Virus record (IMG/VR): IMGVR_UViG_3300029986_000041
Coordinates: 1-37,024 of that record
Source of the DNA: a virus
Length of the DNA: 37,024 nt
Reading direction: 5' to 3' (one strand)
Shown here: positions 8,823 to 31,313 of the stretch, piece by piece
How positions within the stretch are numbered: the first letter of the stretch is position 1
Layout of the letters: every line of letters begins with the position of its first letter
Notes under the pieces: model-generated
The model's database searches: none
What the model saw: the letters and a program-made list of their open reading frames with translations, nothing else
What the model was told of the DNA's origin: nothing
Position numbers and translations under genes: made by a program

Positions 8823-10710
8823 AGTTTTAGGATTTCCTGACGGGATGTCATCGGACGCTATTGATGCCGCTATTCATTCGGATAAAATTGGCCGTCCTGA
8901 CGTTGACGTTAATCCTAACACTTATGATACCGTTATCCGTCCCGCGCTAAAAGAATCAATGGCTAAGAATAACCCAAATATTCTTTACAATGCAAGAATT
9001 AAACAAGCGCAGGTAGACCCATTTCTAAGCACACTATTTAACCCATTTGGATTATTTAAGAGTTCTGACAAAGATATTAAAGAAGAACAAAAATTAAATG
9101 TTACTGCTCATCCAGATCAAGCAATGATTGGGGAATTGGCTCAACAGACCGCCACTATTGCGGCTACTGCTTTTGTTGGTGGCCCAATAATCGCCCCAAT
9201 AGCAGAAAGAATAGGATTCCTTGCTCGCGGCATGACCCCTATGGCTATTCGGTCAATGATTGTAGGCTCTGAAAAAGTTCTTCCGAAAGTGGCTGGTGAA
9301 GCAATTCGGAAGGTCGCTACGTCTGCCGCTAGTGCCGGTATTCTTGGGGCTTTTTACAAAGGCGTTTCGTCCTATGTTGAGCAAGGCAAAGGGTTTTTAG
9401 ATAATAACCAAGCCCCTGATCTATTGAAGTTAGGAAAGAGCGTTGTAGAGGGTTTAGGATGGAGCGTTTACGGTGTTGGCGGAGCATTTACGAAAGGATC
9501 TTTGGGAATTACAGCGGCATCTGCTACGGTTGGCGGCACGGCTTATGTTATGTCCAGGGCTGACGGTGCGAGTGAATCTGACTCACGATTAAATAGTATT
9601 ATGATGACGGCTTTTACCGCAGTTACTCACGGGGAGTTTAATTTCGAGAGCAGAAAGAAGCTGGTGTCAGATTTACAAGACACTTTCGCGGGATACACAA
9701 AAGCAAAGAACCCTGATACTGAACAGAATGATATTCATAGGATGGTTGGTGATGAATTAGTTGGCAAGACCGCTAAAGACTTGCTTCGTGATAAATACAA
9801 AGCACAGATGGAGGAATGGAATAAAAGCGTATATGTTACTGGCATCCGTGGCGAAGCAGACAAAGCGCGGAATCCCGCGGAAGTTTCGGCAATGGAGAAT
9901 GAAGGTGGTGGACAGGAACAAGGTAAGAACGAACCAATAGTCCAGAAACCAAAGAAATTAACGCCCAAGCAGAAAAAAGACTATGAGGATTTACAAAAAC
10001 AAATATCTGATCTTGAAAATGAGGGAGGGAATTATGCGATAAATGAAATTGCCAAGACCCAAGTAGACACCGAGGAACTTGTTAAAAGATTAGCTGACCA
10101 AGTATTAAATATGGAGAATGAGGGCGGGGCGCTGGCACAAGAAAAGGAAGAAGAAAAAGGCGAAGAAGCACATAAAGAAGCAAAGGTTGAATTAACACCA
10201 AAAGAAGGTGTTAGCAAAATTGGCAAGAGTGTTGAGCAAAAAGCTTTCGATCAGGGCGTAACAAAAGGATTTGATAAAACGGCTAAATTTAGAAAAACTA
10301 CTTTTGAAGAACAAAGAAAACTGACAAGCGGTGCATCAAAAGATGTTAATAAAATGAGAGCTACGTTGCGAGGCGAAGAACCCTTGCCGGAGAATGTTGA
10401 ACCAGCGGCTTATATTGCGGAAGTTGAAAAATATTTAAAAGATAACCCAAGCGCTGACATTGCTTATGAATTAGCTAACTCACCCTTAATCACAGAAACG
10501 TCTGAACAAGCACGCGGATTAAGCGTTGCCCGTATGCGAGAGCAAGATTCTTTTTCTCAAGCCATTGCAGAACTAAAGGCAAAAAAACTGATAATGAGCA
10601 AGGAAGTTGCCAAAGACATTCCTAAAAAAGCTAAAGAAGCAATGGAAAAAGTAAACTTAACCAAAGAAGATTTAAACCTTGATAAATTCTTGGATGAAAT
10701 AAAATGTTAA
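8791..10710 (+). CDS. Large internal/ejection protein with membrane segments and ENEGG repeats
   Basis: 639 residues from ATG 8791. An in-frame TTG at 8758 has its SD only one base away and is less likely. The N-terminus contains 'GFPDGMSSDAIDAAI', a short motif seen at the start of many phage injection proteins. Residues about 120-270 hold hydrophobic, glycine-rich stretches (TIAATAFVGGPIIAPIAERIG; SAGILGAFYKG; GSLGITAASATVGGTAYVM) that could insert in membrane. The second half is charged coiled coil with three copies of (M/L)ENEGG encoded at 9892, 10012 and 10111. No transglycosylase motif is visible. Position suggests half of a gp16-like DNA-ejection machine, the other half being the next gene. 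Confidence 0.65.
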   Translation: MITALNKQTNEVLGFPDGMSSDAIDAAIHSDKIGRPDVDVNPNTYDTVIRPALKESMAKNNPNILYNARIKQAQVDPFLSTLFNPFGLFKSSDKDIKEEQKLNVTAHPDQAMIGELAQQTATIAATAFVGGPIIAPIAERIGFLARGMTPMAIRSMIVGSEKVLPKVAGEAIRKVATSAASAGILGAFYKGVSSYVEQGKGFLDNNQAPDLLKLGKSVVEGLGWSVYGVGGAFTKGSLGITAASATVGGTAYVMSRADGASESDSRLNSIMMTAFTAVTHGEFNFESRKKLVSDLQDTFAGYTKAKNPDTEQNDIHRMVGDELVGKTAKDLLRDKYKAQMEEWNKSVYVTGIRGEADKARNPAEVSAMENEGGGQEQGKNEPIVQKPKKLTPKQKKDYEDLQKQISDLENEGGNYAINEIAKTQVDTEELVKRLADQVLNMENEGGALAQEKEEEKGEEAHKEAKVELTPKEGVSKIGKSVEQKAFDQGVTKGFDKTAKFRKTTFEEQRKLTSGASKDVNKMRATLRGEEPLPENVEPAAYIAEVEKYLKDNPSADIAYELANSPLITETSEQARGLSVARMREQDSFSQAIAELKAKKLIMSKEVAKDIPKKAKEAMEKVNLTKEDLNLDKFLDEIKC

Positions 10711-15349: not shown

Positions 15350-15748
15350 ATGCAAACTTATATTTTACAAACAGGATTTTGGTATTTAAAAGATACTGGC
15401 GGGAACGTTGTTGAGATCCATTTTAATAATGAAGTCGGACAAACTGTTTCCTATCCCGACGGATTTACCCTAGTTGAAGTCGCTAATGCCGATGGATTGT
15501 CTGGAATAGCAATCCCTCAATCACAGGAACAAATAACAGCGTTAGCAAACTCTCAATTATTATTACAAATCCAAGCGAATAGAGAAGCGTACATTGATGC
15601 GTTAATAAATAACGACGCCGCTACGCAAGCATCAATTGTAACAGCACAAACAGCGCTTATTTCGCAAGCTGTAACGGCAGGTGTTGCTTTACCACCGACG
15701 ACAACAAATTGGATACAAACAAGCGGAGTGATCCAGGCAAATAAATAA
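15350..15748 (+). CDS. Small protein after the tail fibre, possible fibre chaperone or adhesin
   Basis: 132 residues. The N-terminal half is beta-rich with aromatic residues (YILQTGFWYLKDTGGNVVEIHFN), followed by an Ala/Gln/Thr-rich helix (QILALANSQLLLQIQANREAY type). It begins behind AAGGAGG, 9 bases after the fibre stop. Many phages place a fibre assembly protein here, but no family motif is seen. It is the last gene of the late block; the next 160 bases are regulatory. Confidence 0.55.
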   Translation: MQTYILQTGFWYLKDTGGNVVEIHFNNEVGQTVSYPDGFTLVEVANADGLSGIAIPQSQEQITALANSQLLLQIQANREAYIDALINNDAATQASIVTAQTALISQAVTAGVALPPTTTNWIQTSGVIQANK

Positions 15749-15756
15749 GATTTTCC

Positions 15757-15785
15757 TTGCAATTTGTTTTCATTGTGATTAAATA
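15757..15785 (+). promoter_or_regulatory. Candidate sigma70-type promoter before the replication block
   Basis: TTGCAA (15757-15762) and, after 17 bases, TAAATA (15780-15785), or TTAAAT one base earlier, in a very AT-rich stretch. Each box matches the consensus only partly. The place is right: it is the first clear gap after the late genes and about 25 bases before the SD of the leader ORF. Confidence 0.4.
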
Positions 15786-15791
15786 TTCGTA

Positions 15792-15900
15792 GATGAGGAT
15801 ATTAACAATGAAGACAACCCCACAACAATATTTTTTGAAATTTCGGCCTTCCCGTGGTATATCCTCATCGACTTACCTTAACCTTCATTGGCGGGAGGCC
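15792..15900 (+). ncRNA. Leader RNA with three interleaved complementary pairs (A B C A' B' C')
   Basis: Three perfect or near-perfect complement pairs occur in crossed order. A GATGAGGATAT (15792-15802) pairs with A' 15859-15869 (11 bp). B CAATGAAG (15806-15813) pairs with B' 15883-15890 (8 bp). C GGCCTTCCCG (15845-15854) pairs with C' CGGGAGGCC (15892-15900), 9 bp with one bulge, followed by TTTTGATTT. A holds the SD of the leader ORF, B its ATG, and C' the GGGAGG upstream of the replisome-organiser gene. The pairs cannot all form as simple nested hairpins. They could make a pseudoknot or be alternative states of a translational/transcriptional switch. The pairing is seen; the switching is inference. 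Confidence 0.6.
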
Positions 15901-15906
15901 TTTTGA
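15808..15906 (+). CDS. Leader peptide, 32 residues
   Basis: ATG 15808 lies 7 bases after GAGGAT (15795-15800). The frame runs exactly through the structured region and stops 3 bases before the next gene's ATG 15910. The peptide starts MKTTPQQYFLKFRP and ends NLHWREAF, basic with many Ser/Thr. It may exist mainly so that ribosomes unwind the C/C' stem and free the downstream SD (translational coupling), as leader peptides do. No family is recognised. Confidence 0.5.
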   Translation: MKTTPQQYFLKFRPSRGISSSTYLNLHWREAF

Positions 15907-15909
15907 TTT

Positions 15910-16581
15910 ATGGTTTATCTCACAATAAGAAACATTGAAAAGTACCACCCGAACTATAAAGACAGGAACTTGATTTGGTGTAAAACTTATTTCACAATGT
16001 TAAATGCTGACCCTGATTTTGAGATGCTTGATGAGATAGATAAGTGGCGATTTATTGCTTTTACCATGCTACAAATTCAAACCCACAACCCAATTCCCCT
16101 AGATGAAAAATATCTTAGCAGAAAAGGCTTTGACTTCAAAAAGAAGAAATTAGCAGATTCCATTATTTCTTTGGCTAATTTTACGCAAATAGTTGAAGAT
16201 AATAGTGTAACAGAACTTACAAAACAATGTAACACAACTTTAGAAAGTGTGTGCCCTAGAGAAGAGAAGAGTAGAGTAGAAGAAGAGAAGAGTAGACACG
16301 ATTTTGAGACCTTATGGAACAAGTATCCTAAAAAGCTTGGGAAGCATGATGCGCACAAACATTTCCAGTCACAGGTGAAAACAGACGAAGATTATTCCAA
16401 TATAAACAAAGCAATAAATAATTTTCTTATTTCGGATGTTGTAGCAGGCGATCAAAAGTTTATTCCGCACGGCTCAACGTGGTTTAATGAACGTTGGAGG
16501 GATTGGGTAGATATAGCAAACGCAACTGGTAAATCACAAGCACTAATTGACCTAGAAAGGATGACAAATGGAAAACGTTAG
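15910..16581 (+). CDS. Replisome organiser / replication initiator-like protein
   Basis: 223 residues. N-terminal winged-helix-like part (LTIRNIEKYHPNYKDRNLIW...). The C-terminal part 'FETLWNKYPKKLGKHDAHKHF' (about 132-152), then 'FIPHGSTWFNERWRDW' (about 183-198), is the usual ending of phage lambda O/DnaT-type replisome organisers (W..YP....K..A...; iP..stWLN...W.D). A flexible acidic/basic linker (CPREEKSRVEEEKSR) joins them. It should bind the origin and recruit the host helicase, which fits a genome with no replicative helicase of its own. The SD is GGGAGG at 15893, 11 bases upstream, inside the C' arm of the leader RNA. Confidence 0.75.
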   Translation: MVYLTIRNIEKYHPNYKDRNLIWCKTYFTMLNADPDFEMLDEIDKWRFIAFTMLQIQTHNPIPLDEKYLSRKGFDFKKKKLADSIISLANFTQIVEDNSVTELTKQCNTTLESVCPREEKSRVEEEKSRHDFETLWNKYPKKLGKHDAHKHFQSQVKTDEDYSNINKAINNFLISDVVAGDQKFIPHGSTWFNERWRDWVDIANATGKSQALIDLERMTNGKR

Positions 16582-20626: not shown

Positions 20627-20710
20627 GTCAGAGAAGCTTAGAAAAGTCGAAAGACGGGCATAAGCGTTGGAGAAATCCAAAGGTCGCAGGTTCGAATCCT
20701 GCCTCTGACA
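20627..20710 (+). ncRNA. tRNA-like cloverleaf with a GAAA tetraloop instead of an anticodon loop
   Basis: The 7-bp acceptor GTCAGAG (20627-20633) pairs perfectly with CTCTGAC (20703-20709) before discriminator A. Two bases (AA) precede a D-arm-like stem GCTTA/TAAGC (20636-20640 / 20661-20665) holding a small GTC-GAAA-GAC hairpin. One base (G) then precedes hairpin TTGGA-GAAA-TCCAA (20667-20680), where the anticodon arm belongs. Next come the class I variable loop AGGTC and a perfect T-arm GCAGG-TTCGAAT-CCTGC (20686-20702). No CCA is encoded. All spacings fit a tRNA, but the anticodon loop has 4 bases, not 7. It is therefore either a decayed tRNA or a tRNA mimic. The fold is seen; the function is unknown. 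Confidence 0.65.
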
Positions 20711-22140: not shown

Positions 22141-22641
22141 ATGAAAGGATTTACACACGAACCACCAGCAGGAGGGCCAGTTGATTGGTATACTCCACCA
22201 GAAATATTTGAAAAGTTGAATATTCAATTTGATCTTGATGTGGCTTATCCGAAAGATAAGATTTTAGATTGGATACCCACTAAGGGATTTATTACAGAGA
22301 GGTCGCTTCAATCGGAATGGCATGGACGGGTATGGATGAATCCACCATATGATCGTCATATACATTTATGGTTAGAAAAATTAAGTAATCATGGTAACGG
22401 AATTGCATTGATATGGGCAAGAACAGATGTTGCTTGGTTTCATACATACGCCCCATTAGCTACCTATGTTTTATTTACTAAAAACAGAATATCTTTCATA
22501 AACCACGAAATGAAAAGAATGGAAAGACCCGCCATTGGATCTCTCTTTCTTGCCTTCGGACAAGAATGTGCAGAAGCATTGATGAAGTCAAATCTTGGTT
22601 TTGGAATGTATACACCAGTGGGGAGAATGTTAAATTCTTAA
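22141..22641 (+). CDS. Phage DNA N-6-adenine methyltransferase (Dam family)
   Basis: 166 residues. 'VDWYTPPEIFEKL' (14-26), 'FDLDVAYP' (30-37) and 'WHGRVWMNPPYDRHIHLWLEKL' around NPPY (67-70) are the motifs of the small phage Dam/adenine methyltransferase family. The N/DPPY motif binds the target adenine. 'ALIWARTDVAWFH' follows. It probably protects phage DNA from host restriction or marks it. No partner nuclease is visible, so it is likely an orphan enzyme. Leader copy 3 gives strong initiation. Confidence 0.85.
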   Translation: MKGFTHEPPAGGPVDWYTPPEIFEKLNIQFDLDVAYPKDKILDWIPTKGFITERSLQSEWHGRVWMNPPYDRHIHLWLEKLSNHGNGIALIWARTDVAWFHTYAPLATYVLFTKNRISFINHEMKRMERPAIGSLFLAFGQECAEALMKSNLGFGMYTPVGRMLNS

Positions 22642-23388: not shown

Positions 23389-23526
23389 ATGAAAATTATC
23401 AAGTGGTTATTAATTAAGGATTACTTTCCAAGATGGGCAACAATTATTATTATGATCCCGATGATTACACATTTACTATTTGGAGTTTGGACTCTATCAG
23501 ATTTAATTAAATTATTTTGGAAATAA
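23389..23526 (+). CDS. Small membrane protein
   Basis: 45 residues, with a basic N-terminus (KIIKWLLIKDYFPRW) followed by a strong transmembrane segment (ATIIIMIPMITHLLFGVW) and a short aromatic tail. It is flanked by the two copies of a 15-base direct repeat, so gene and leader may have moved as one cassette. No family recognised. It opens the sugar cassette. Confidence 0.55.
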   Translation: MKIIKWLLIKDYFPRWATIIIMIPMITHLLFGVWTLSDLIKLFWK

Positions 23527-23539
23527 CGTGGATAAAAGG
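23525..23539 (+). repeat. 15-base direct repeat, copy 2
   Basis: Second copy, overlapping the end of the membrane-protein gene and leading into GGAGCTAGGATG of the FAD enzyme. Confidence 0.8.
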
Positions 23540-23546
23540 AGCTAGG

Positions 23547-24686
23547 ATGAACTTGATATTAGGAGCAGGTATGGCAGGGCTTGGGGCAGGTATAAAAACT
23601 GAATATCCTATATATGAGCAATCAGATAAGGCTGGCGGGATCTGCCGTGATTACGTTAAAGACGGATTCACCTTTTCAAATGGTGGGGGACACTATCTGT
23701 TTGGCAAAGGCCCCGGACTTGATTATATTAAATCTTTAGTGCCAGTAAACGAGATTGAGCGCAAGGCAGGGGTTTATTACAATACGACTTTCCCGTATCC
23801 TTTTCAGACAACAGCAGAAAAAGACAATCACATTAGCACGTATCTACATGGTGGAAATGCAACAATAAAAGATTGGCTATTTGATAAGTTTGGAAAAGAT
23901 CAATGCAATCTATTTTTTAATCCCTTTAATGAGAAGTATACTGCTGGTTTATATGATAGGATTATCCAAGTAGACGACTACAAAAGCCCCCCTGCGGGTG
24001 GTAAAGGCTTCTGTCCTACCTTTTGTGATCCCGTAAACGGATTAAGTGATTTAGTGGATAAGATGGCGAGTAAGTGCGATATAAAATATGGTTATCAAGC
24101 AAAAAAAATATACGTTGAAAAAAAAAGAGTTTATTTTGAAGGGAATAATTTTGGACAAGACAAAGAATACGACAAGTTAATATCAACAATCCCCCTAAAC
24201 AAGTTAATGGAAATGTGCGGCCAGAAAGTAAATCTTCCTTACACTTCCGTATTAGTCATAAACATAGGGGCAGAAGTAGGCGCTTGCACACCCAAAGAGC
24301 ATTGGATGTATATACCTTTTTCTAAAACACCTTTTTATAGAGTGGGCTTTTATTCAAATATTCATCCGAATAAAGCGCCAAATGGAACGGTCGGGTTATC
24401 TGTTGAAATGGCGTTTCTACCAGATCAGAAAATAGACATACCTAAAATCACAAGAGACGTTATTCAAGAATTGCAAGAATGGCGTTGGATTGGAGAAGAA
24501 GTTATTACAAAAGATCCCACGGTTGTGCCAATGGCTTATACTTGGGTTTACGATAGGGAAACAGTACCCAAGGCGTTAGCATGGCTTAAAGAAAGAGATA
24601 TAATCTCAATTGGCAGGTACGGTAAACATCGTTTTCAAGGCATGGTAGAGAGCGTGGGGGACGGGTTAAATGTCAATCTTGACTAG
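23547..24686 (+). CDS. UDP-galactopyranose mutase-like FAD enzyme
   Basis: 379 residues. ATG 23547 sits behind GGAG; an in-frame start at 23517 would begin inside the previous gene. FAD site GAGMAGLGAG (6-15) with Glu24, then 'GGICRDYVKDGFTFSNGGGHYLF' across 30-52. 'FPYPFQT' and 'FNPFNEKY' match the FAD oxidoreductase/mutase family common in polysaccharide clusters, whose best-known member converts UDP-galactopyranose to the furanose. Sequence near 'GRYGKHRFQGM' fits the sugar/FAD end. The mutase call is moderate; a broader protoporphyrinogen-oxidase-like oxidoreductase is possible. It overlaps the next GT2 gene by 17 bases. Confidence 0.7.
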   Translation: MNLILGAGMAGLGAGIKTEYPIYEQSDKAGGICRDYVKDGFTFSNGGGHYLFGKGPGLDYIKSLVPVNEIERKAGVYYNTTFPYPFQTTAEKDNHISTYLHGGNATIKDWLFDKFGKDQCNLFFNPFNEKYTAGLYDRIIQVDDYKSPPAGGKGFCPTFCDPVNGLSDLVDKMASKCDIKYGYQAKKIYVEKKRVYFEGNNFGQDKEYDKLISTIPLNKLMEMCGQKVNLPYTSVLVINIGAEVGACTPKEHWMYIPFSKTPFYRVGFYSNIHPNKAPNGTVGLSVEMAFLPDQKIDIPKITRDVIQELQEWRWIGEEVITKDPTVVPMAYTWVYDRETVPKALAWLKERDIISIGRYGKHRFQGMVESVGDGLNVNLD

Positions 24687-25359
24687 CGTTATCGTAGCAA
24701 ATCACGGAAGGGACACTTCTAAGCTGGTATCTTCTTTGCCGGCAGGTGTGGAATATCTCGAAATCAATCAAGGATTAGAGCGATCAGCCCAAAGGAATAT
24801 TGGTATTGATAACGCCCGCGGCAAGTATTTACTTATTCTTGATAGCGACCAAAACATTTCACCTGGATTGATTAGAGAGTGCGAAACTTTAATGTGGGCA
24901 GGGTTTTCGTGCGTTTATATCCCTGAAATCATAGTAGCCAAGTCTTTCTTTGGGAAGATTAGGAAATTTGAACGGGAATTTTACACCGGCACAGCAATAG
25001 ATGTTCCGAGATTTGTTGATAAGAGATACTGCCCTAAATTTAATTTAGAATTATCGGGGCCCGAAGACGCGGATTGGGGCAATAGAATTAGAGGATGTCG
25101 GGCAATAAGCACTTCGCCCCTCTATCACCACGACGACGTGAGCTTTATTGAGTACATGAGAAAGAAGATTTATTACACGAAGTCAATGCGTAAGTACGCA
25201 GAATTATGGCCTGATGACAAATGTTTGAACCTTAAGTACAGATGTTGGGATGTTTTCGTGGAAGATGGAAAATGGCGCAAGTTGATCGCCCATCCTATTT
25301 TGACTTTAGGAATAATATTTTTATTGATAGTCAGGGGAATAATTTATGCGAAAAGATAA
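24670..25359 (+). CDS. GT2 glycosyltransferase with C-terminal membrane anchor
   Basis: 229 residues. GT-A fold: 'SVIVANHGRDTSKLVSSLP', 'ERSAQRNIGIDNARGKYLLILDSDQNI' (split by helix) with the DxD-type DSD at 57-59, and acceptor-side 'LSGPEDADWGNRI' (about 136-148). A hydrophobic tail 'HPILTLGIIFLLIVRGIIYA' likely anchors it to the inner membrane. It transfers a sugar to a lipid-linked or surface acceptor. The start overlaps the mutase-like gene. Confidence 0.75.
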   Translation: MSILTSVIVANHGRDTSKLVSSLPAGVEYLEINQGLERSAQRNIGIDNARGKYLLILDSDQNISPGLIRECETLMWAGFSCVYIPEIIVAKSFFGKIRKFEREFYTGTAIDVPRFVDKRYCPKFNLELSGPEDADWGNRIRGCRAISTSPLYHHDDVSFIEYMRKKIYYTKSMRKYAELWPDDKCLNLKYRCWDVFVEDGKWRKLIAHPILTLGIIFLLIVRGIIYAKR

Positions 25360-25507
25360 TCTTCAAAGACAATCCGTAGTTTTTAAATGTAAACAATGTG
25401 GTAAAATGATAGAACATTTCACACGCAAGCCAATGTTAATGACAAAAACCTATTGTGATGATTGCGTCTACCAAAGAAAGAGAAAATATTATGCCTCTGT
25501 CCGTTAG
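25346..25507 (+). CDS. Small zinc-finger protein within the sugar cassette
   Basis: 53 residues, 'FKCKQCGKMIEHF' and 'TYCDDCVYQRKRK' give two CxxC pairs about 25 residues apart, one zinc site, followed by a strongly basic end. It overlaps the GT2 genes on both sides. A nucleic-acid-binding role is likely; it does not fit the sugar pathway and may be an inserted accessory gene. Confidence 0.55.
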   Translation: MRKDNLQRQSVVFKCKQCGKMIEHFTRKPMLMTKTYCDDCVYQRKRKYYASVR

Positions 25508-26354
25508 TGTGTGTATCGCGTGCTACAAAAATGATCCGTTCTTAAATGAAGCAATCGCAAGTTGCACAATGCAAAGCTATCCAGTAACAGTTTGTGTTTA
25601 TCACGACAACGTAGGTGTCGGAACGGGAGAAGCTTTCAATCGGGCAATAGCAATGTCTAAAGACGACATAATTGTGCTTCTTTGTTCCGATGATGTTTTT
25701 ACTGACCCCAATGTAATCTCTGATATTGTGAGCGTCTTTGAAACAATACCAGAAATAGGTCACGTTTCTAGGTGGTATCATCAGTTTGTAGAAAACGACA
25801 GGCATCCAGTAAGGGCATGGCGCGGTGAAGATGTGATTGAGCTTGCCAACAACCCTTCCGGTATGGCTTTTAGGAGAGAGGCATTGTGTTGTGATGTGAA
25901 AAACAACTGGTTTGATCCACCCCGCAGATTAACAAACAGAATATTTGTTGAAGTTGCAGATTTAGTCAGAAGCGTTATAAAAGATGGGTGGGCATATTCA
26001 ATACTTCGGTACGACACAGTAGCCGTTAGGATTCACCAGAGCATTTCAAGAACGCCTGGGTACTATAAGAAAATGTTTACCACAAGCCCTGTATTGGAAT
26101 GGGCAAAGTTAGGTTGGAAATCAAAAGACTTCACAAGTTTAATTCAGATAAAAAACAATTTCACAACAAAGGCGGTGTTAGATGAAATCAGGAATTTTAT
26201 TTCTGTTGATATGGGGAATTTACTTCACCCTGCTTTTTGGTTTTTTAGCGTGGTGGCACTTATTACACCGAGATCAATCCTCTATAAAATTCCCGAAATC
26301 TACCGGGCGACTTGGGGCAGACTTACAACCAAAGAGGTAAAGCGTGAAAAATAA
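25491..26354 (+). CDS. GT2 glycosyltransferase
   Basis: 287 residues from ATG 25491 (upstream in-frame codons at 25455 lie in the previous gene). 'SVSVCIACYKNDPFLNEAI' opening, and 'DDIIVLLCSDDVFTDPNVI' with the DD metal motif. The middle contains 'NPSGMAFRREAL' and 'TNRIFVEVADLV'. The C-terminal end 'PAFWFFSVVALITP' is membrane-like. It shares these motifs with the next gene, so the two are paralogues. Start overlaps the zinc gene; end overlaps the next start. Confidence 0.75.
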   Translation: MPLSVSVCIACYKNDPFLNEAIASCTMQSYPVTVCVYHDNVGVGTGEAFNRAIAMSKDDIIVLLCSDDVFTDPNVISDIVSVFETIPEIGHVSRWYHQFVENDRHPVRAWRGEDVIELANNPSGMAFRREALCCDVKNNWFDPPRRLTNRIFVEVADLVRSVIKDGWAYSILRYDTVAVRIHQSISRTPGYYKKMFTTSPVLEWAKLGWKSKDFTSLIQIKNNFTTKAVLDEIRNFISVDMGNLLHPAFWFFSVVALITPRSILYKIPEIYRATWGRLTTKEVKREK

Positions 26355-27252
26355 AATCACCGTCGCTATTCCATCATACAATAACGAAAAGCACATAGGA
26401 GAAGCTATTGGAAGCGCAAGGATGCAAGAATATCCATTAAAAAATATTCTCATTATAGATGATTGCTCAACGGATAAAACGTTTAATATAGCAAAAGAAT
26501 TTATGAGTGATGAGAATATTGAAGTTTATAAGAATGAGAGCAATTTAGGAATAGGAAAAAATTTAGAAAAGTTAATGACAAAATGCGAAACAAAGTACAT
26601 AGTATATTTATGTGCAGACGATATTTTCACGCACCCGAAGGTCTTGACAGATATTGTACATATATTTGATTACTCGCCGGAGATTGGCGTAGTCGGAAGG
26701 TACGGATTTTATTTCATGGATGGACACAGAGGCGCAATAGGCGTTTGCAGAGATAAAAATATTCTTACTTCTTCGTGTTGCCCGTCTGGGGTAGCTTTCC
26801 GCACAAGACCAGACATCGCTAAATCCACAAACCGAATTTTCGTTGAAATGCCTACAATGGTTGCAAGTTTTCTGAAACAATACCGATGGACAATGATAGA
26901 ATGGGACACGGTAGCTTTTCGCTATGCGCCCGGAATAAATACCGGCACCAAGCCTTCGTATTACACAGAATCCCCAACACAGAATTGGATTGACCTCATG
27001 GGTCAGAATTACCAAGACTTCTCAATATTCATTACACTTAAAAACCGAGCACCTAGATTGTTGTTAAAGGAGATATGGCTACACATAGAAAACGACAAGA
27101 CGGTATTAAAGAACCCTATGTTCTGGCTGTATGGCCTAACGGCGTTCGTGTTACCCGCCTTCATTCTGAAAAGATTAACAAGATTCTACAGACACAGGCT
27201 GTCAAGAATGTCTGCAAAAATAATAGAAAGGCCAAGTGAACAAAAACATTGA
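26344..27252 (+). CDS. GT2 glycosyltransferase, paralogue of the preceding
   Basis: 302 residues, GTG start. 'ITVAIPSYNNEKHIGEAIGSAR', 'NILIIDDCSTDKTF' with the nucleotide-binding DDCSTD, 'YIVYLCADDIFTHPKVL' with the metal-binding ADD, 'CPSGVAFR', 'TNRIFVEMPTMV' and a C-terminal 'MFWLYGLTAFVLPAFI' membrane-like segment mirror the preceding enzyme. The pair likely arose by tandem duplication and then changed substrate or acceptor choice. It overlaps the previous gene by 11 bases. Confidence 0.78.
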   Translation: MKNKITVAIPSYNNEKHIGEAIGSARMQEYPLKNILIIDDCSTDKTFNIAKEFMSDENIEVYKNESNLGIGKNLEKLMTKCETKYIVYLCADDIFTHPKVLTDIVHIFDYSPEIGVVGRYGFYFMDGHRGAIGVCRDKNILTSSCCPSGVAFRTRPDIAKSTNRIFVEMPTMVASFLKQYRWTMIEWDTVAFRYAPGINTGTKPSYYTESPTQNWIDLMGQNYQDFSIFITLKNRAPRLLLKEIWLHIENDKTVLKNPMFWLYGLTAFVLPAFILKRLTRFYRHRLSRMSAKIIERPSEQKH

Positions 27253-27331
27253 AATAATAATGAGAGTTATCGCAAAACTTGTCAAAGAAGGAAAACCATT
27301 TGTGTTTATAATTGGGGGAGATAATGCCTAA
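27236..27331 (+). CDS. Possible 31-residue peptide between GT2 and RmlB-like genes
   Basis: GTG 27236 behind GAAAGG. The frame runs 'MNKNIEIIMRVIAKLVKEGK' and then 'PFVFIIGGDNA', overlapping genes on both sides. It carries the GGGGGAG ribosome site of the next gene. Moderately hydrophobic. It could be a coupling peptide or non-functional. Confidence 0.35.
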   Translation: MNKNIEIIMRVIAKLVKEGKPFVFIIGGDNA

Positions 27332-28334
27332 AACAATTTTAATTACGGGAGTTGGGGGATTCATTGGAAGTCATTGTTTAAGCCATGTGCTTGTAAACAC
27401 AGATTGGAACGTAGTAGGGATTGATAGTTGGAACCACAAAGGAATTTCAGAAAGAGTTAGCGAAAGCACCCATTACCAACGGAACAAGCATAGGGTAAAC
27501 GTATATACTCACGATTTAAGCGCCCCTATATCAAACGTCATGCAAGAAAAAATAGGGAAAGTGGATTATATCATCAATTTCGCAAGTCAGAGCCATGTTG
27601 ATCGTTCGCTAACAGATCCCGTTCCCTTCGTACAGAACAACGTCAACGTCATTTTAACAATGTTAGAGTACGTTCGCAAGTCACAGCCTGAAAAGTTTAT
27701 TCAGATAGGCACAGATGAAACCTACGGGCCTACTGATGGAATCCACGCACATAAAGAATGGGACTGTATCAGACCATCAAATCCTTACTCCGCAAGCAAG
27801 GCCGCACAAGAAGCTATTTGTATAAGTTATTGGCGCAGTTACAACGTACCTATCATTCTCACAAATATAATGAATAACTACGCAGAAACCCAAGACCCGG
27901 AGAAATTCGTACCGATGGTTATTAAGAAAGTAATTAACGAAGAAACGGTTTATATCCATTCAGATCCTACTTGTCAGTTCTCTGGATCAAGGTTTTGGTT
28001 ACATCCTCGTAATTTATCAGACGCTTTAATATTCTTACTTAAAGAAGTTCCTGTTGATTATTACCCAAAACATGACCGGCCCCAAAGATTTAATGTTGTT
28101 GGAGAGGTTCAGATCACAAATTTAGATATGGCTCTAAAGATAGCTGAAATAATTGGCAAGCCTCTTAAATATGAATTAGTAGACGCCCATACCAGCCGGG
28201 CAGGTCACGACCTACATTATGGGCTTGACGGCAGAAAGTTAAAATCTTACGGATACGAATTCCCTAAAGGATTTGAAGAATCTTTGCGCAAGACGGTTGA
28301 ATGGACGATTAATAACCCAAGATGGTTAAAATGA
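27324..28334 (+). CDS. dTDP-glucose 4,6-dehydratase-like SDR enzyme
   Basis: 336 residues. NAD-binding GVGGFIGSH (9-17), then 'IINFASQSHVDRSL', the dehydratase triad T130-D131-E132 in 'IQIGTDETYGPTDG', and Y155-xxx-K159 in 'NPYSASKAAQE'. The R/TDE-plus-YxxxK pattern is that of RmlB-type NDP-sugar 4,6-dehydratases, giving 4-keto-6-deoxy-sugars for rhamnose-like or amino sugars. A related GDP-mannose or UDP-sugar dehydratase is the alternative. GGGGGAG is the ribosome site. Confidence 0.8.
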   Translation: MPKTILITGVGGFIGSHCLSHVLVNTDWNVVGIDSWNHKGISERVSESTHYQRNKHRVNVYTHDLSAPISNVMQEKIGKVDYIINFASQSHVDRSLTDPVPFVQNNVNVILTMLEYVRKSQPEKFIQIGTDETYGPTDGIHAHKEWDCIRPSNPYSASKAAQEAICISYWRSYNVPIILTNIMNNYAETQDPEKFVPMVIKKVINEETVYIHSDPTCQFSGSRFWLHPRNLSDALIFLLKEVPVDYYPKHDRPQRFNVVGEVQITNLDMALKIAEIIGKPLKYELVDAHTSRAGHDLHYGLDGRKLKSYGYEFPKGFEESLRKTVEWTINNPRWLK

Positions 28335-29356
28335 GATATTTATTTCCTCTTAATCCCTACAATCAGCAAAGGCAACTGGAAAAGATGGTTTGGGTCTACC
28401 CTGCACATTTGGCTATGTACGCAACTTATTTAAAGAATCAAGGGCATGAAGTAATATGGAATCATAAAGGCCCAGCCAAAGCATCGGATAGAACAATTGA
28501 CAATGATTTTCAAATAGATGTTCCGTTTGAAGACTTGCCATTCCCAGACAGACTATTTACCGACGGTAAGAATAAAAGATGGCAAGATTACGGCAACTAC
28601 AAGTTTAAGCCAGCCACGCACATGATGGCATCAAACCTTTGCTGGTACGGCCGTTGTACTTTCTGCATCGATACCAAGAAACTCGAAGAAGGAGAACATA
28701 GAGGGTTAAGAACGGTAGATCACTGCATGGAGGAGATAGATGACCTTATTGCCAATGGATATAAAGAAGTCTTTGATGATTCAGGCACGTTCCCTCTTGG
28801 GAAGTGGTTGGAAGAATTCTGTGTCAAAATGCTTATTAATGGAAGGCGAAAGCACATTAAGATTGGCTGTAATATGCGAGTCCAAGACGCACCTTGGGGG
28901 ATCATGGGAGGTGCTGGTTTTAGATTTATCCTCTTTGGCATCGAGTCAGCAAATCAGCCAACTCTTGACAGAATTAAAAAATCAGCCCGCGCAGATGAAA
29001 CGGTTAGGATACTCAAAGAAGCATCAGAAGCAGGTTTAGAGCCACACGGGACGTTTATGACAGGGTATCCCTGGGAAACGGAGAAGGATGAAAAACGAAC
29101 AATCGAACTCTGCCACTACTTGCTCAAAAAGGGGTATCTTAAAACGGCTCAGGCATCGGTATATAGTCCGCCTCGTACAAGTCCTAGCCCTGATTCTGTT
29201 GGGCACCGTTATTTGCCCCGTTTTTATGATGTATATAAGTCTCCTGAGTTCATTATTCGCAAGGTAAGTGATATAAGATGCTGGCAGGATTTTACTTATA
29301 ACTTACGTGGCGCTCGTTTAGTTGTGGAGGAAAAATGTCGCAAAATGTTCTCATAA
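28331..29356 (+). CDS. Radical SAM enzyme
   Basis: 341 residues, ATG 28331 overlapping the previous stop as ATGA. Cys104, Cys109 and Cys112 in 'SNLCWYGRCTFC' form a CX4CX2C cluster motif, a variant of the usual CX3CX2C. 'FRFILFGIESANQPTLDRI' and 'GLEPHGTFMTGYPWET' are standard later motifs of B12-type/elongator-like radical SAM proteins. The N-terminus has only a trace of a cobalamin-binding domain ('YPAHLAMYATYLKNQGHEV'). In a sugar cluster it might methylate or rearrange a sugar or lipid; the actual reaction is unknown. Confidence 0.75.
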   Translation: MRYLFPLNPYNQQRQLEKMVWVYPAHLAMYATYLKNQGHEVIWNHKGPAKASDRTIDNDFQIDVPFEDLPFPDRLFTDGKNKRWQDYGNYKFKPATHMMASNLCWYGRCTFCIDTKKLEEGEHRGLRTVDHCMEEIDDLIANGYKEVFDDSGTFPLGKWLEEFCVKMLINGRRKHIKIGCNMRVQDAPWGIMGGAGFRFILFGIESANQPTLDRIKKSARADETVRILKEASEAGLEPHGTFMTGYPWETEKDEKRTIELCHYLLKKGYLKTAQASVYSPPRTSPSPDSVGHRYLPRFYDVYKSPEFIIRKVSDIRCWQDFTYNLRGARLVVEEKCRKMFS

Positions 29357-30717
29357 TTTTATTGGTCAACTTTCTGTTTTACGCCAAGACCCTACGTATG
29401 GGTTACGTGTCTGATGATATAGTTTCAGCGCAACGATCGCCACATAAGAATCCATTTCTACATTGGTTTTGGGTTCTTGAGGGACATTCAAAGAGCGTAT
29501 CATATAAAAAAATGGAACAAGGTGACTCTAATTTCTTAATGCCGGGGGTCGATCATGCGATTACTACGTTGCTTCATAGCTTGGTTTGCGTTGGAATTTA
29601 CTTGGGCTTGGGAGATAATCAAGTTAGTTTTATTGCTGCTTTGCTGTTTTCTTTCAATCCTGTTAATAATCAAGGTAGCGTCTGGATAAGTGGACGCGGG
29701 TATGTATTAAGTGCTTTAGGGATGGTTTGGGCATTAGCTTTACCTATGGAGATGGGCGGGCTGATGTTGCTGGGAGCAACCTATAGCAATGCGGGATTCT
29801 CCTTGCCGATTATCCTATTAGGCTCAAGCCATCCTTATTTATTTATATTTGCGCCTTTATGCTGGTGGTTTCACATGAAACGTTTTCAAAAGAACGTGAA
29901 ACAAAAGATGGACATGGAGTTATTTACGGAAGATAAGCACATTCACCCAAAGAAGCTGATCCTTGCGGTAAAAACGTTTGGCATTTATCTAAGTCATGCG
30001 ATTATTCCATTTAAAACCACGTTTTATCATTCTTATCTTGAAAGCATTGCCGGTTGCAACGCACAGAAAGCGTATACACTTTGTAAGTTTTTCTGGTTTG
30101 GCGCAGGATCTTTGGTGCTGATGCTTTGGTATATTTGTACGCACAGATGGGACATGGTTTGTTTCGGGATATTGTGGTGGTGTGTTGGGATTGCGCCATT
30201 TTGTAATTTGATGAGGATGCAACAGGAGTTAGGGGAAAGATACGTATATGCGGCTAACGTTGGCGCTATGCTCATCCTGGCGCACTTTATTTCACCATAT
30301 CCCGTTGTATGTGCCTTTTTTATCGGAATGTACGCAATGAAGACATGGGATTTTATTTCCGGGTACAAGGATGATTTTTGGTTTATAGAAGTCTGCCGAA
30401 TCAATCAGCCTAAGTCTTGGTTTGCTTGGCACATCAGCGCAGTGAAAAGATGGGACGTTCAATCATACCGGGAGGCTGTTATATTTTGGGTGATGGCTAA
30501 AAACCTAAGTCCAAAAGAATTTAAGTTACTATTTAACCTTGCGGCCGCGCTCGTAGTTATGGGAAATCAATGTGTTGAACCGTTACGCTCAAATATGATC
30601 CGTGAAGGATTAGGATTTCTCGCAGAAGCAGAGAAGAACATTCCCAAAGGACAGGAGAAAATGGCGGGAGAGTTTATTACAAATTTCAGAAATAACAAAG
30701 TTGCAATTTTAATTTAG
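29335..30717 (+). CDS. GT-C membrane glycosyltransferase (TMTC-like)
   Basis: 460 residues. ATG 29335 sits behind GGAGG, overlapping the radical SAM gene by 22 bases. There are about eight hydrophobic segments. 'MGYVSDDIV' places the catalytic-type Asp pair D27-D28 in the first outside loop; 'FNPVNNQGSVWISGRGYVLSAL' and 'ELGERYVYAANVGAMLILAHF' are the typical later motifs of the GT-C proteins with C-terminal TPR (TMTC/PMT style). The tail after about 350 is TPR-like helix. GT-C enzymes use a polyprenyl-phosphate sugar as donor on the outer face of the inner membrane. The adjacent DPM1-like gene supplies such a donor. Very unusual in a small phage. Confidence 0.65.
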   Translation: MSQNVLIILLVNFLFYAKTLRMGYVSDDIVSAQRSPHKNPFLHWFWVLEGHSKSVSYKKMEQGDSNFLMPGVDHAITTLLHSLVCVGIYLGLGDNQVSFIAALLFSFNPVNNQGSVWISGRGYVLSALGMVWALALPMEMGGLMLLGATYSNAGFSLPIILLGSSHPYLFIFAPLCWWFHMKRFQKNVKQKMDMELFTEDKHIHPKKLILAVKTFGIYLSHAIIPFKTTFYHSYLESIAGCNAQKAYTLCKFFWFGAGSLVLMLWYICTHRWDMVCFGILWWCVGIAPFCNLMRMQQELGERYVYAANVGAMLILAHFISPYPVVCAFFIGMYAMKTWDFISGYKDDFWFIEVCRINQPKSWFAWHISAVKRWDVQSYREAVIFWVMAKNLSPKEFKLLFNLAAALVVMGNQCVEPLRSNMIREGLGFLAEAEKNIPKGQEKMAGEFITNFRNNKVAILI

Positions 30718-30725
30718 GAGAAATT

Positions 30726-31313
30726 ATGAGTGTTAGTCTTATTATGCCCTGTCACAATGAGGGTAAACGTCAAGAGTTCATGGAAGATATTGAAGAAATC
30801 CTTCCAATGGTAAATCAGATTATAGGTTGTAATGATAAGCACAGCATGGGTAAAGGTTGGGCCGTGCGTGAAGCTTTAAGATGCGCAACAGGAGATATTG
30901 TGATAATCCTCGACGGCGATGGGGATATAAACCCTAAGATGGTTAGGCGGTTACTTCCTTACCTTGAAGACTATGATGTTGTTTGTGGAGTTCGTCCTAT
31001 AAGCGGGTTATGGTCAAGAAGGTGTTTAACTTATTGGTCAAGAATGTACATAGCGCTATTGTTTGGTGTAAAGGTTTCGTCTCAAACAGGATTGAAAATA
31101 TTTAAACGATATGCACTCGAGGAATGGTATAATAATGGATTCTTAGCCGATCTGGAAATACTTTGTATGGCTAAAAAGAAAGGCATGAGAATTATTGAAG
31201 TTCCAATAGAAGGCGAAACAAATAAACCAATGAAATTTTCAAGCATTTGGAGAACTTTCAAAGAATCAATAACTCTTTTCTTAGAAATGAAGGATTATAA
31301 GCATGATAAATAA
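30726..31313 (+). CDS. Polyprenyl-phosphate sugar synthase (DPM1-like GT2)
   Basis: 195 residues. 'VSLIMPCHNEGKR', 'GKGWAVREALRCATGDIVIILDGDGDINP' (split) with DGDGD at 63-67, 'SSQTGLKIFKR' and 'DLEILCMAKKKGMRIIEVPI'. This is the dolichol/polyprenyl-phosphate mannose or glucose synthase pattern, which transfers a sugar from NDP-sugar to the lipid phosphate on the inside of the inner membrane. It lacks the C-terminal membrane helices seen in some relatives (about 195 residues total). Placed 8 bases after the GT-C gene, it very likely makes its donor. Confidence 0.8.
   Translation: MSVSLIMPCHNEGKRQEFMEDIEEILPMVNQIIGCNDKHSMGKGWAVREALRCATGDIVIILDGDGDINPKMVRRLLPYLEDYDVVCGVRPISGLWSRRCLTYWSRMYIALLFGVKVSSQTGLKIFKRYALEEWYNNGFLADLEILCMAKKKGMRIIEVPIEGETNKPMKFSSIWRTFKESITLFLEMKDYKHDK

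Follow-up and report, generated by a model that had tools for sequence, protein, structure and literature searches.

The window analyzed here, a stretch of 37,024 nucleotides that makes up a 37-kb virus record, resembles a short-tailed phage in which portal, terminase, major head, and tail proteins are recognized. Its portal/head-tail connector shares ~30% identity with the corresponding proteins of HTVC010P-like pelagiphages and of a podovirus from a spring. All features listed below for the leader and its flanking genes lie on the plus strand. The block that holds the capsid, tail, and internal virion genes closes at position 15748 with an ORF of 132 amino acids (15350-15748) that falls into no family, and a gap of 161 nt, containing the leader that is the subject of this study, separates it from the gene we call rep (15910-16581). 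The N-terminal domain of Rep corresponds to PHROG 28809, the C-terminal part is like phage replication initiation and primosomal proteins, and rep is the first recognized gene of a replication and recombination block that includes an Erf-like annealing protein and a NinG/Rap-like nuclease.

Three further observations concern the rest of the record. Positions 23517-31313, upstream of the terminase, encode several glycosyltransferase-like proteins, an amine-oxidoreductase-like protein, a nucleotide-sugar epimerase, and a radical SAM protein; such a glycosyltransferase-type block is unusual cargo for a 37-kb short-tailed phage. A tRNA at 20627-20710 is matched by Rfam at 48 bits and was not called by ARAGORN, and its length of 84 bases points to a tRNA that has a long variable arm or is unusual. 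Finally, a DNA methyltransferase-like ORF (22141-22641) matches only positions 61-215 of a 345-residue profile and is possibly truncated.

Architecture of the Leader

The first-pass annotation described three complementary pairs in the gap before rep, whose strands follow one another in the order A B C A' B' C' (ABCABC). Direct reading and stem enumeration confirm this order, the sizes of the pairs, and the span of 109 nt (15792-15900). A (GATGAGGATAT, 15792-15802) pairs with A' (ATATCCTCATC, 15859-15869) over 11 bp, all Watson-Crick; B (CAATGAAG, 15806-15813) pairs with B' (CTTCATTG, 15883-15890) over 8 bp; and C (GGCCTTCC, 15845-15852) pairs with C' (GGGAGGCC, 15893-15900) over 8 bp, one of them G-U. 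Helix C:C' can alternatively form between GGCCT(T)CCCG and CGGGAGGCC, with 9 bp and one bulged T; taken in full, its 5' strand reads GGCCTTCCCG (15845-15854), and its 3' strand (15892-15900) contains GGGAGG, the Shine-Dalgarno (SD) sequence of rep. Since A, B, and C cross pairwise, all three helices can coexist only as a pseudoknot, as the annotation had stated.

The helices are superimposed on the start signals of two genes. A leader ORF of 32 codons plus TGA (15808-15906, MKTTPQQYFLKFRPSRGISSSTYLNLHWREAF) ends just before the rep ATG at 15910. Its SD, GAGG (15795-15798), lies inside A, its ATG (15808-15810) lies inside B, and the rep SD lies inside C', so the earlier statement that the helices cover all three signals is correct. 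A' is the anti-SD and B' the anti-start-codon of the leader, and both sit in the C:C' loop. Directly after C' comes the T-rich tail that had also been reported, TTTTGATTT, part of an intrinsic-terminator-like stretch (15901-15911, TTTTGATTTAT).

A possible promoter, TTGCAA-16 nt-TTAAAT with a TG one base before the -10 hexamer, precedes the leader (15757-15784). It is weak, with 8/12 matches, and falls below the threshold of the promoter scan of the window, which does not list it; if used, it would place the mRNA start at ~15791, at the first base of A. A consensus scan for a promoter-like site on the minus strand over the leader found none, such scans being weak evidence.

The leader ORF does not look like a small protein of a recognized kind, with no Pfam or PHROG match. 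The tblastn matches of its peptide are chance ones, and scans with degenerate codons gave nothing or chance matches. The peptide lacks a run of codons for any one amino acid, and no common run is found across the leader peptides of the three loci compared below. The DNA of the leader region has no match in phage records, and an Rfam search at permissive thresholds, covering the whole window and the three leaders, returned nothing relevant.

The Triple Is Not Expected by Chance

The interleaved pairing had been called very unlikely by chance, and shuffling bears this out: just 1 of 59,736 dinucleotide shuffles is as good as the window, in a test that held the SD and AUG positions fixed, shuffled the downstream part alone, and applied one loose spacing rule. 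Interleaved triples of perfect stems of at least 7 bp occur nowhere in the 37 kb outside the leader region and in none of 12 whole-window shuffles. The triple has a summed stacking energy of -48.5 kcal/mol, which 0 of 4000 dinucleotide shuffles of the leader reach, and it is the best-scoring one on either strand of the 37 kb. With A:A' granted, the probability is about 0.003-0.005 for B on its own and about 0.005-0.009 for C on its own.

Base composition matters for these numbers, interleaved triples being common by chance in GC-rich DNA. The leaders of the window and of L003, a viral contig that carries a rep homologue, have only 35-38% G+C, and both stand out after composition correction. 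A sequence scan for B', C', and tail gave 101 stretches, and only those of the window and L003 were accepted. The remaining stretches resemble hairpins of local terminators and come mostly from GC-rich DNA; by energy alone, three of them are nearly as good, and composition-corrected tests were used for this reason.

Recurrence at Two Other Operon Starts

Relatives of rep are few: three viral contigs (L002, L003, and L004) and one metagenome-assembled genome (MAG) of the FCB group (L014), with a doubtful match at 28% identity in L015. Searches of viral and genome collections and of the phylum of the MAG yielded no rep or nuclease relatives beyond these five. A leader directly upstream of rep is absent in L002, L004, L014, and Vibrio phage phiV208, where rep lies inside an operon.

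Two other loci with rep homologues, L003 and L022 (a contig in a bacterial MAG), carry the ABCABC order where the early operon appears to begin, with helix sequences that are entirely different among the three leaders. L003 was examined for its homologous position. L022 emerged from a scan of 13 kb and fits only with a wider A-B gap, and we estimate that ~60 SD-ATG sites have to be weighed against its probability. The L003 leader lies directly before rep, which appears to open the operon there and has a good sigma-70-like promoter (TTGACA-17-TATATT) upstream; the L022 leader, with a perfect TATAAT (10338-10343) just upstream of A, lies before the first gene of the operon, and rep follows 2.4 kb downstream.

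In L003, A:A' (TTGGGAGCG/TGCTCCCAA) lies on the leader SD, B:B' (AAATGAT/ATCATTT) lies on the leader ATG, and C:C' (GCTCCGT/GCGGGGC) is followed by the tail ATTTTTATT. In L022, A:A' (GGCAAAA/TTTTGCC) again lies on the leader SD, B:B' (ACAAAACA/TGTTTTGT) starts 3 nt after the leader ATG, and an 11-bp C:C' (ACCCCACGCCG/CGGCGTGGGGT) precedes the tail ATATTTTATTT; the leader ORF there has 40 codons, and its stop overlaps with the beginning of the gene that follows. The leader SD thus falls within A in each of the three, the leader ATG falls within B in the window and L003 only, and a T-rich tail follows C' in 3/3. Spacers are similar in the window, L003, and L022, with gaps of 3, 2, and 11 nt between A and B, 6, 5, and 3 between C and A', 13, 15, and 8 between A' and B', and 2, 4, and 4 between B' and C'. 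The C loops measure 40, 40, and 30 nt and the spans 109, 127, and 103 nt. The leader stop lies at -6 nt (window), +17 nt (L003), and +5 nt (L022) relative to the next ATG, distances suited to translational coupling. The annotation had C' covering the SD of the next gene; this holds in the window, whereas at the other two loci C' is upstream of that SD and the feature in common is the T-rich tail.

With one common descriptor applied, 6 of 38,123 shuffles equal L003, and L022 stands out against shuffles of its own sequence, 0 of 51,553 of which equal it. On both strands of its 8.4-kb record, the L003 triple alone has -40 kcal/mol or less; its B and C, weak when taken singly (p about 0.10 and 0.05), jointly reach 0.00025 with the spacing rule. 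Similarity of whole-leader sequences is marginal (pairwise p 0.006, 0.04, and below 0.002), the leader peptides of the window and L003 show none (p 0.83), and the open leader frames are not significant on their own (p 0.34 and 0.09). The comparative case comprises three examples, which are too few for calling these leaders a family.

The initial proposal was a regulatory switch that governs the replication operon, and its two halves have fared differently. The regulatory character is well supported by an ABCABC order that is far beyond chance and recurs with other letters at two operon starts. The link to replication holds only in part: the L022 leader heads its operon with rep far downstream, and rep in L002, L004, and L014 has no leader next to it. 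From the shuffling tests and the recurrence taken together, the element is probably a real on/off switch and not a product of chance, and very probably a regulatory leader conserved in the early operons of a phage group that is sparsely sampled.

Both loci show additional pairing. The L003 leader can form a further strong hairpin (GCGACGAT...ATCGTCGC) and an alternative helix that blocks the SD (469-477, 502-528, and 535-543), which give rise to the two nested states described below, and its A' can also pair with the rep SD. L022 has a fourth helix, TGCCCTT/GAGGGCA (10422-10428 with 10470-10476), that overlaps A' and can hide the SD of the next gene.

Phages with a related nuclease or portal (L130-L133), searched under relaxed rules, gave only matches expected by chance from GC-rich coding sequence. 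One region of L133 (792-919) was set aside as an observation: an annotated 38-codon ORF overlaps the next gene, its SD lies in a 9-bp helix (AAGGGGGCG/CGCCCCCTT), and weaker crossing helices are present (p 0.013), so that this is possibly a similar leader in a related podovirus.

Folding of the Leader

When the window RNA is modeled with nested folds as it grows, the leader SD stays partly open (0.23-0.94) before A' emerges, and its accessibility falls from 0.44 to 0.00 between 15863 and 15869, as A' is made. The nested fold of RNA begun at the possible promoter gives A:A', and that of read-through RNA gives C:C' together with a helix beyond the three pairs of the first-pass annotation. This additional helix joins segment D (15764-15776) to its complement at 15805-15817 over 13 bp, one of them G-U, and can exist only in read-through RNA, in which it would mask the leader ATG as a further lock, according to the model. 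As a conserved element it was ruled out, L003 being without a comparable helix (p 0.78).

The full knot of the window comes to about -29 kcal/mol versus -23.0 kcal/mol for the best nested fold, by a crude sum that charges 9.6 per crossing and has no proper ABCABC energy model behind it. The L003 leader has two near-isoenergetic nested states (-24.3 and -24.6). In L022, nested folding alone leaves the leader SD open, so a lock at that locus rests wholly on the crossing helices.

Comparison with Known Systems

Several characterized leaders share parts of this design. In the rep leaders of IncI-alpha, IncB, and IncL/M plasmids (repY-repZ), a short leader ORF ends at or inside the start of the gene for a replication initiator, so placed that coupled translation is expected, and a pseudoknot lies over the start sites; rep is activated through this pseudoknot and is under the control of a counter-transcribed RNA. 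The likeness extends to the leader stop, which adjoins the rep start in the window (-6 nt) and L003 (+17 nt); in L022, the +5 nt are counted from a different first gene. The leaders described here differ in that the proposed knot would repress the leader, in the ABCABC order, in belonging to a phage rather than a plasmid, and in having no antisense promoter visible over the window leader, as far as a consensus scan is evidence.

The mRNA of the E. coli alpha operon (rpsM) folds into a multi-helix pseudoknot over the ribosome start site and is bound by ribosomal protein S4. The Rfam model Alpha_RBS has no match in the window or the leaders, in which the leader ORF and the terminator-like C:C' are extras. 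By analogy, plasmid rep leaders with a leader peptide and pseudoknot and such knotted translational operators appear to be functionally nearest to the element.

Attenuators of the trp/his type likewise combine a short leader ORF, alternative helices, and a terminator-like last helix with a T-rich tail (3/3 here). They differ from the present leaders, which have no single-amino-acid codon run and whose helices block the leader's own start and cross one another.

The helix order itself is identical to that of the 'pseudotrefoil' pseudoknots, an ABCABC class that accounts for 51 sequences, compared with 1688 of the ABAB class, in a set of 1939 RNA structures (PMC3390330). ABCABC knots are rare among known RNAs. 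To our knowledge, no example has been described in a phage leader.

Proposed Mechanism and Alternatives

We give about even weight to the reading that the element is a structured leader coupled to translation of the leader ORF, placed at the start of an early (replication) operon, where it would switch transcription or translation. Transcription would start at or just before A, so that A and B, with the leader SD and start codon, would emerge first and be open to a ribosome. A ribosome that loads promptly and trails RNA polymerase would keep A and B open and cover C, so that C:C' would not form; stopping beside the start of the next gene, it would hand over by translational coupling, and the operon would be ON. 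If no ribosome arrived within about 80 more bases, A' would shut the SD and B' the start codon in an H-type pseudoknot, and C:C' would then close round A' and B', in the window hiding the rep SD. The T-rich tail after C:C' could end transcription in all three examples, leaving the operon OFF. Leader translation would thus compete with co-transcriptional closure of A and B, and C:C' would act as an attenuator and, in the window, as an SD lock as well; its loop of 30-40 nt is long for an intrinsic terminator and counts against the termination step. The pairings, their improbability, and their recurrence are observations; we infer the coexistence of the three helices, the ON/OFF assignment, termination, and coupling, and a protein such as Rep may bind the knot.

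A classical attenuator is the rival that survives best, and we consider it somewhat unlikely. In this explanation, the helices are mutually exclusive hairpins: A:A', as a lock on the leader ribosome-binding site, alternates with C:C', as a terminator and SD lock, B:B' is of minor importance, and leader translation or folding kinetics decides between them. Nested folds already yield both states, A:A' in promoter-start RNA and C:C' in read-through RNA, the two nested states of L003 are close in energy, and C:C' with a T-rich tail is present in all three leaders. Simple alternation leaves unaccounted for a crossing ABCABC order kept with similar spacers in three leaders, the significance of B alone in the window (p about 0.004), and the crude sum, which prefers the full knot there.

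Less probable still, and in our judgment unlikely, is a translational operator that senses a protein or ligand, with Rep or another abundant factor binding the knot and locking the leader. The leaders do head operons with replication genes, and operators knotted over start sites are well established, as in the E. coli alpha operon; yet the helices have no conserved sequence for a common protein to read, Rfam offers no match, and Rep is not encoded by the first gene in L022.

The leader also recalls the c4 antisense RNA of P1/P7, likewise a phage leader hairpin whose inner segments pair just downstream, near a gene start. In a c4-like unit, the A-A' hairpin (78 nt, close to the 77 nt of P1 c4) would be excised, and its inner B and C would target B'-C' at the rep start in trans. 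Our descriptor scan did pick up a c4-2 RNA before an antirepressor-like gene in L028, but we regard the c4-like explanation as very unlikely. Even at permissive E-values, neither c4 nor c4-2 (RF01695/RF02944) gives a covariance-model match in any of the three leaders (window, L003, and L022), and the nested order of P1, A b' a' A' a2 b2, contrasts with the crossing A B C A' B' C' of all three. On these two grounds membership in c4 was rejected; in addition, we noticed no repeated upstream target (a1/b1). The L028 RNA itself (9650-9739, minus strand) scores 30.2 bits against an Rfam cut-off of 41; it lies upstream of the antirepressor-like gene, which is BRO-type by eye, and matches over 8 bp a target that immediately precedes the start of that gene.

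Chance, or a DNA-level symmetry such as an operator or replication origin that has no RNA function, is the least probable explanation and a highly improbable one: interleaved stems with this much total energy do occur at a rate of a few per megabase when viral DNA is scanned without constraints (L081 is an example), and origins are often found in rep-proximal regions, but the composition-corrected probabilities, the recurrence at two operon-start loci, and the tie of the triple to start codons and a T-rich tail all argue against it.

Implications for Early Gene Control

Beyond the ribosome-coupled leader that we favor, we advance, tentatively and as a bolder claim, that these leaders represent a new class of phage early-operon leader: a three-helix 'pseudotrefoil' ABCABC knot with a terminator-like hairpin whose loop displays sequences complementary to the SD and start region of the leader itself, a knot that would sense ribosome availability for the decision to replicate. 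If this is true, the early operon would be on only when ribosomes load faster than RNA polymerase completes the knot, and the leader would be kept by structure and not by sequence. Phage early genes are mostly viewed as controlled by promoters and proteins; a race between ribosome and polymerase would tie replication to the translation capacity of the host. An ABCABC knot that is kept without shared helix sequence would be invisible to sequence-based searches for RNA families, so more such leaders may exist, and the descriptor used here provides a means of finding them.
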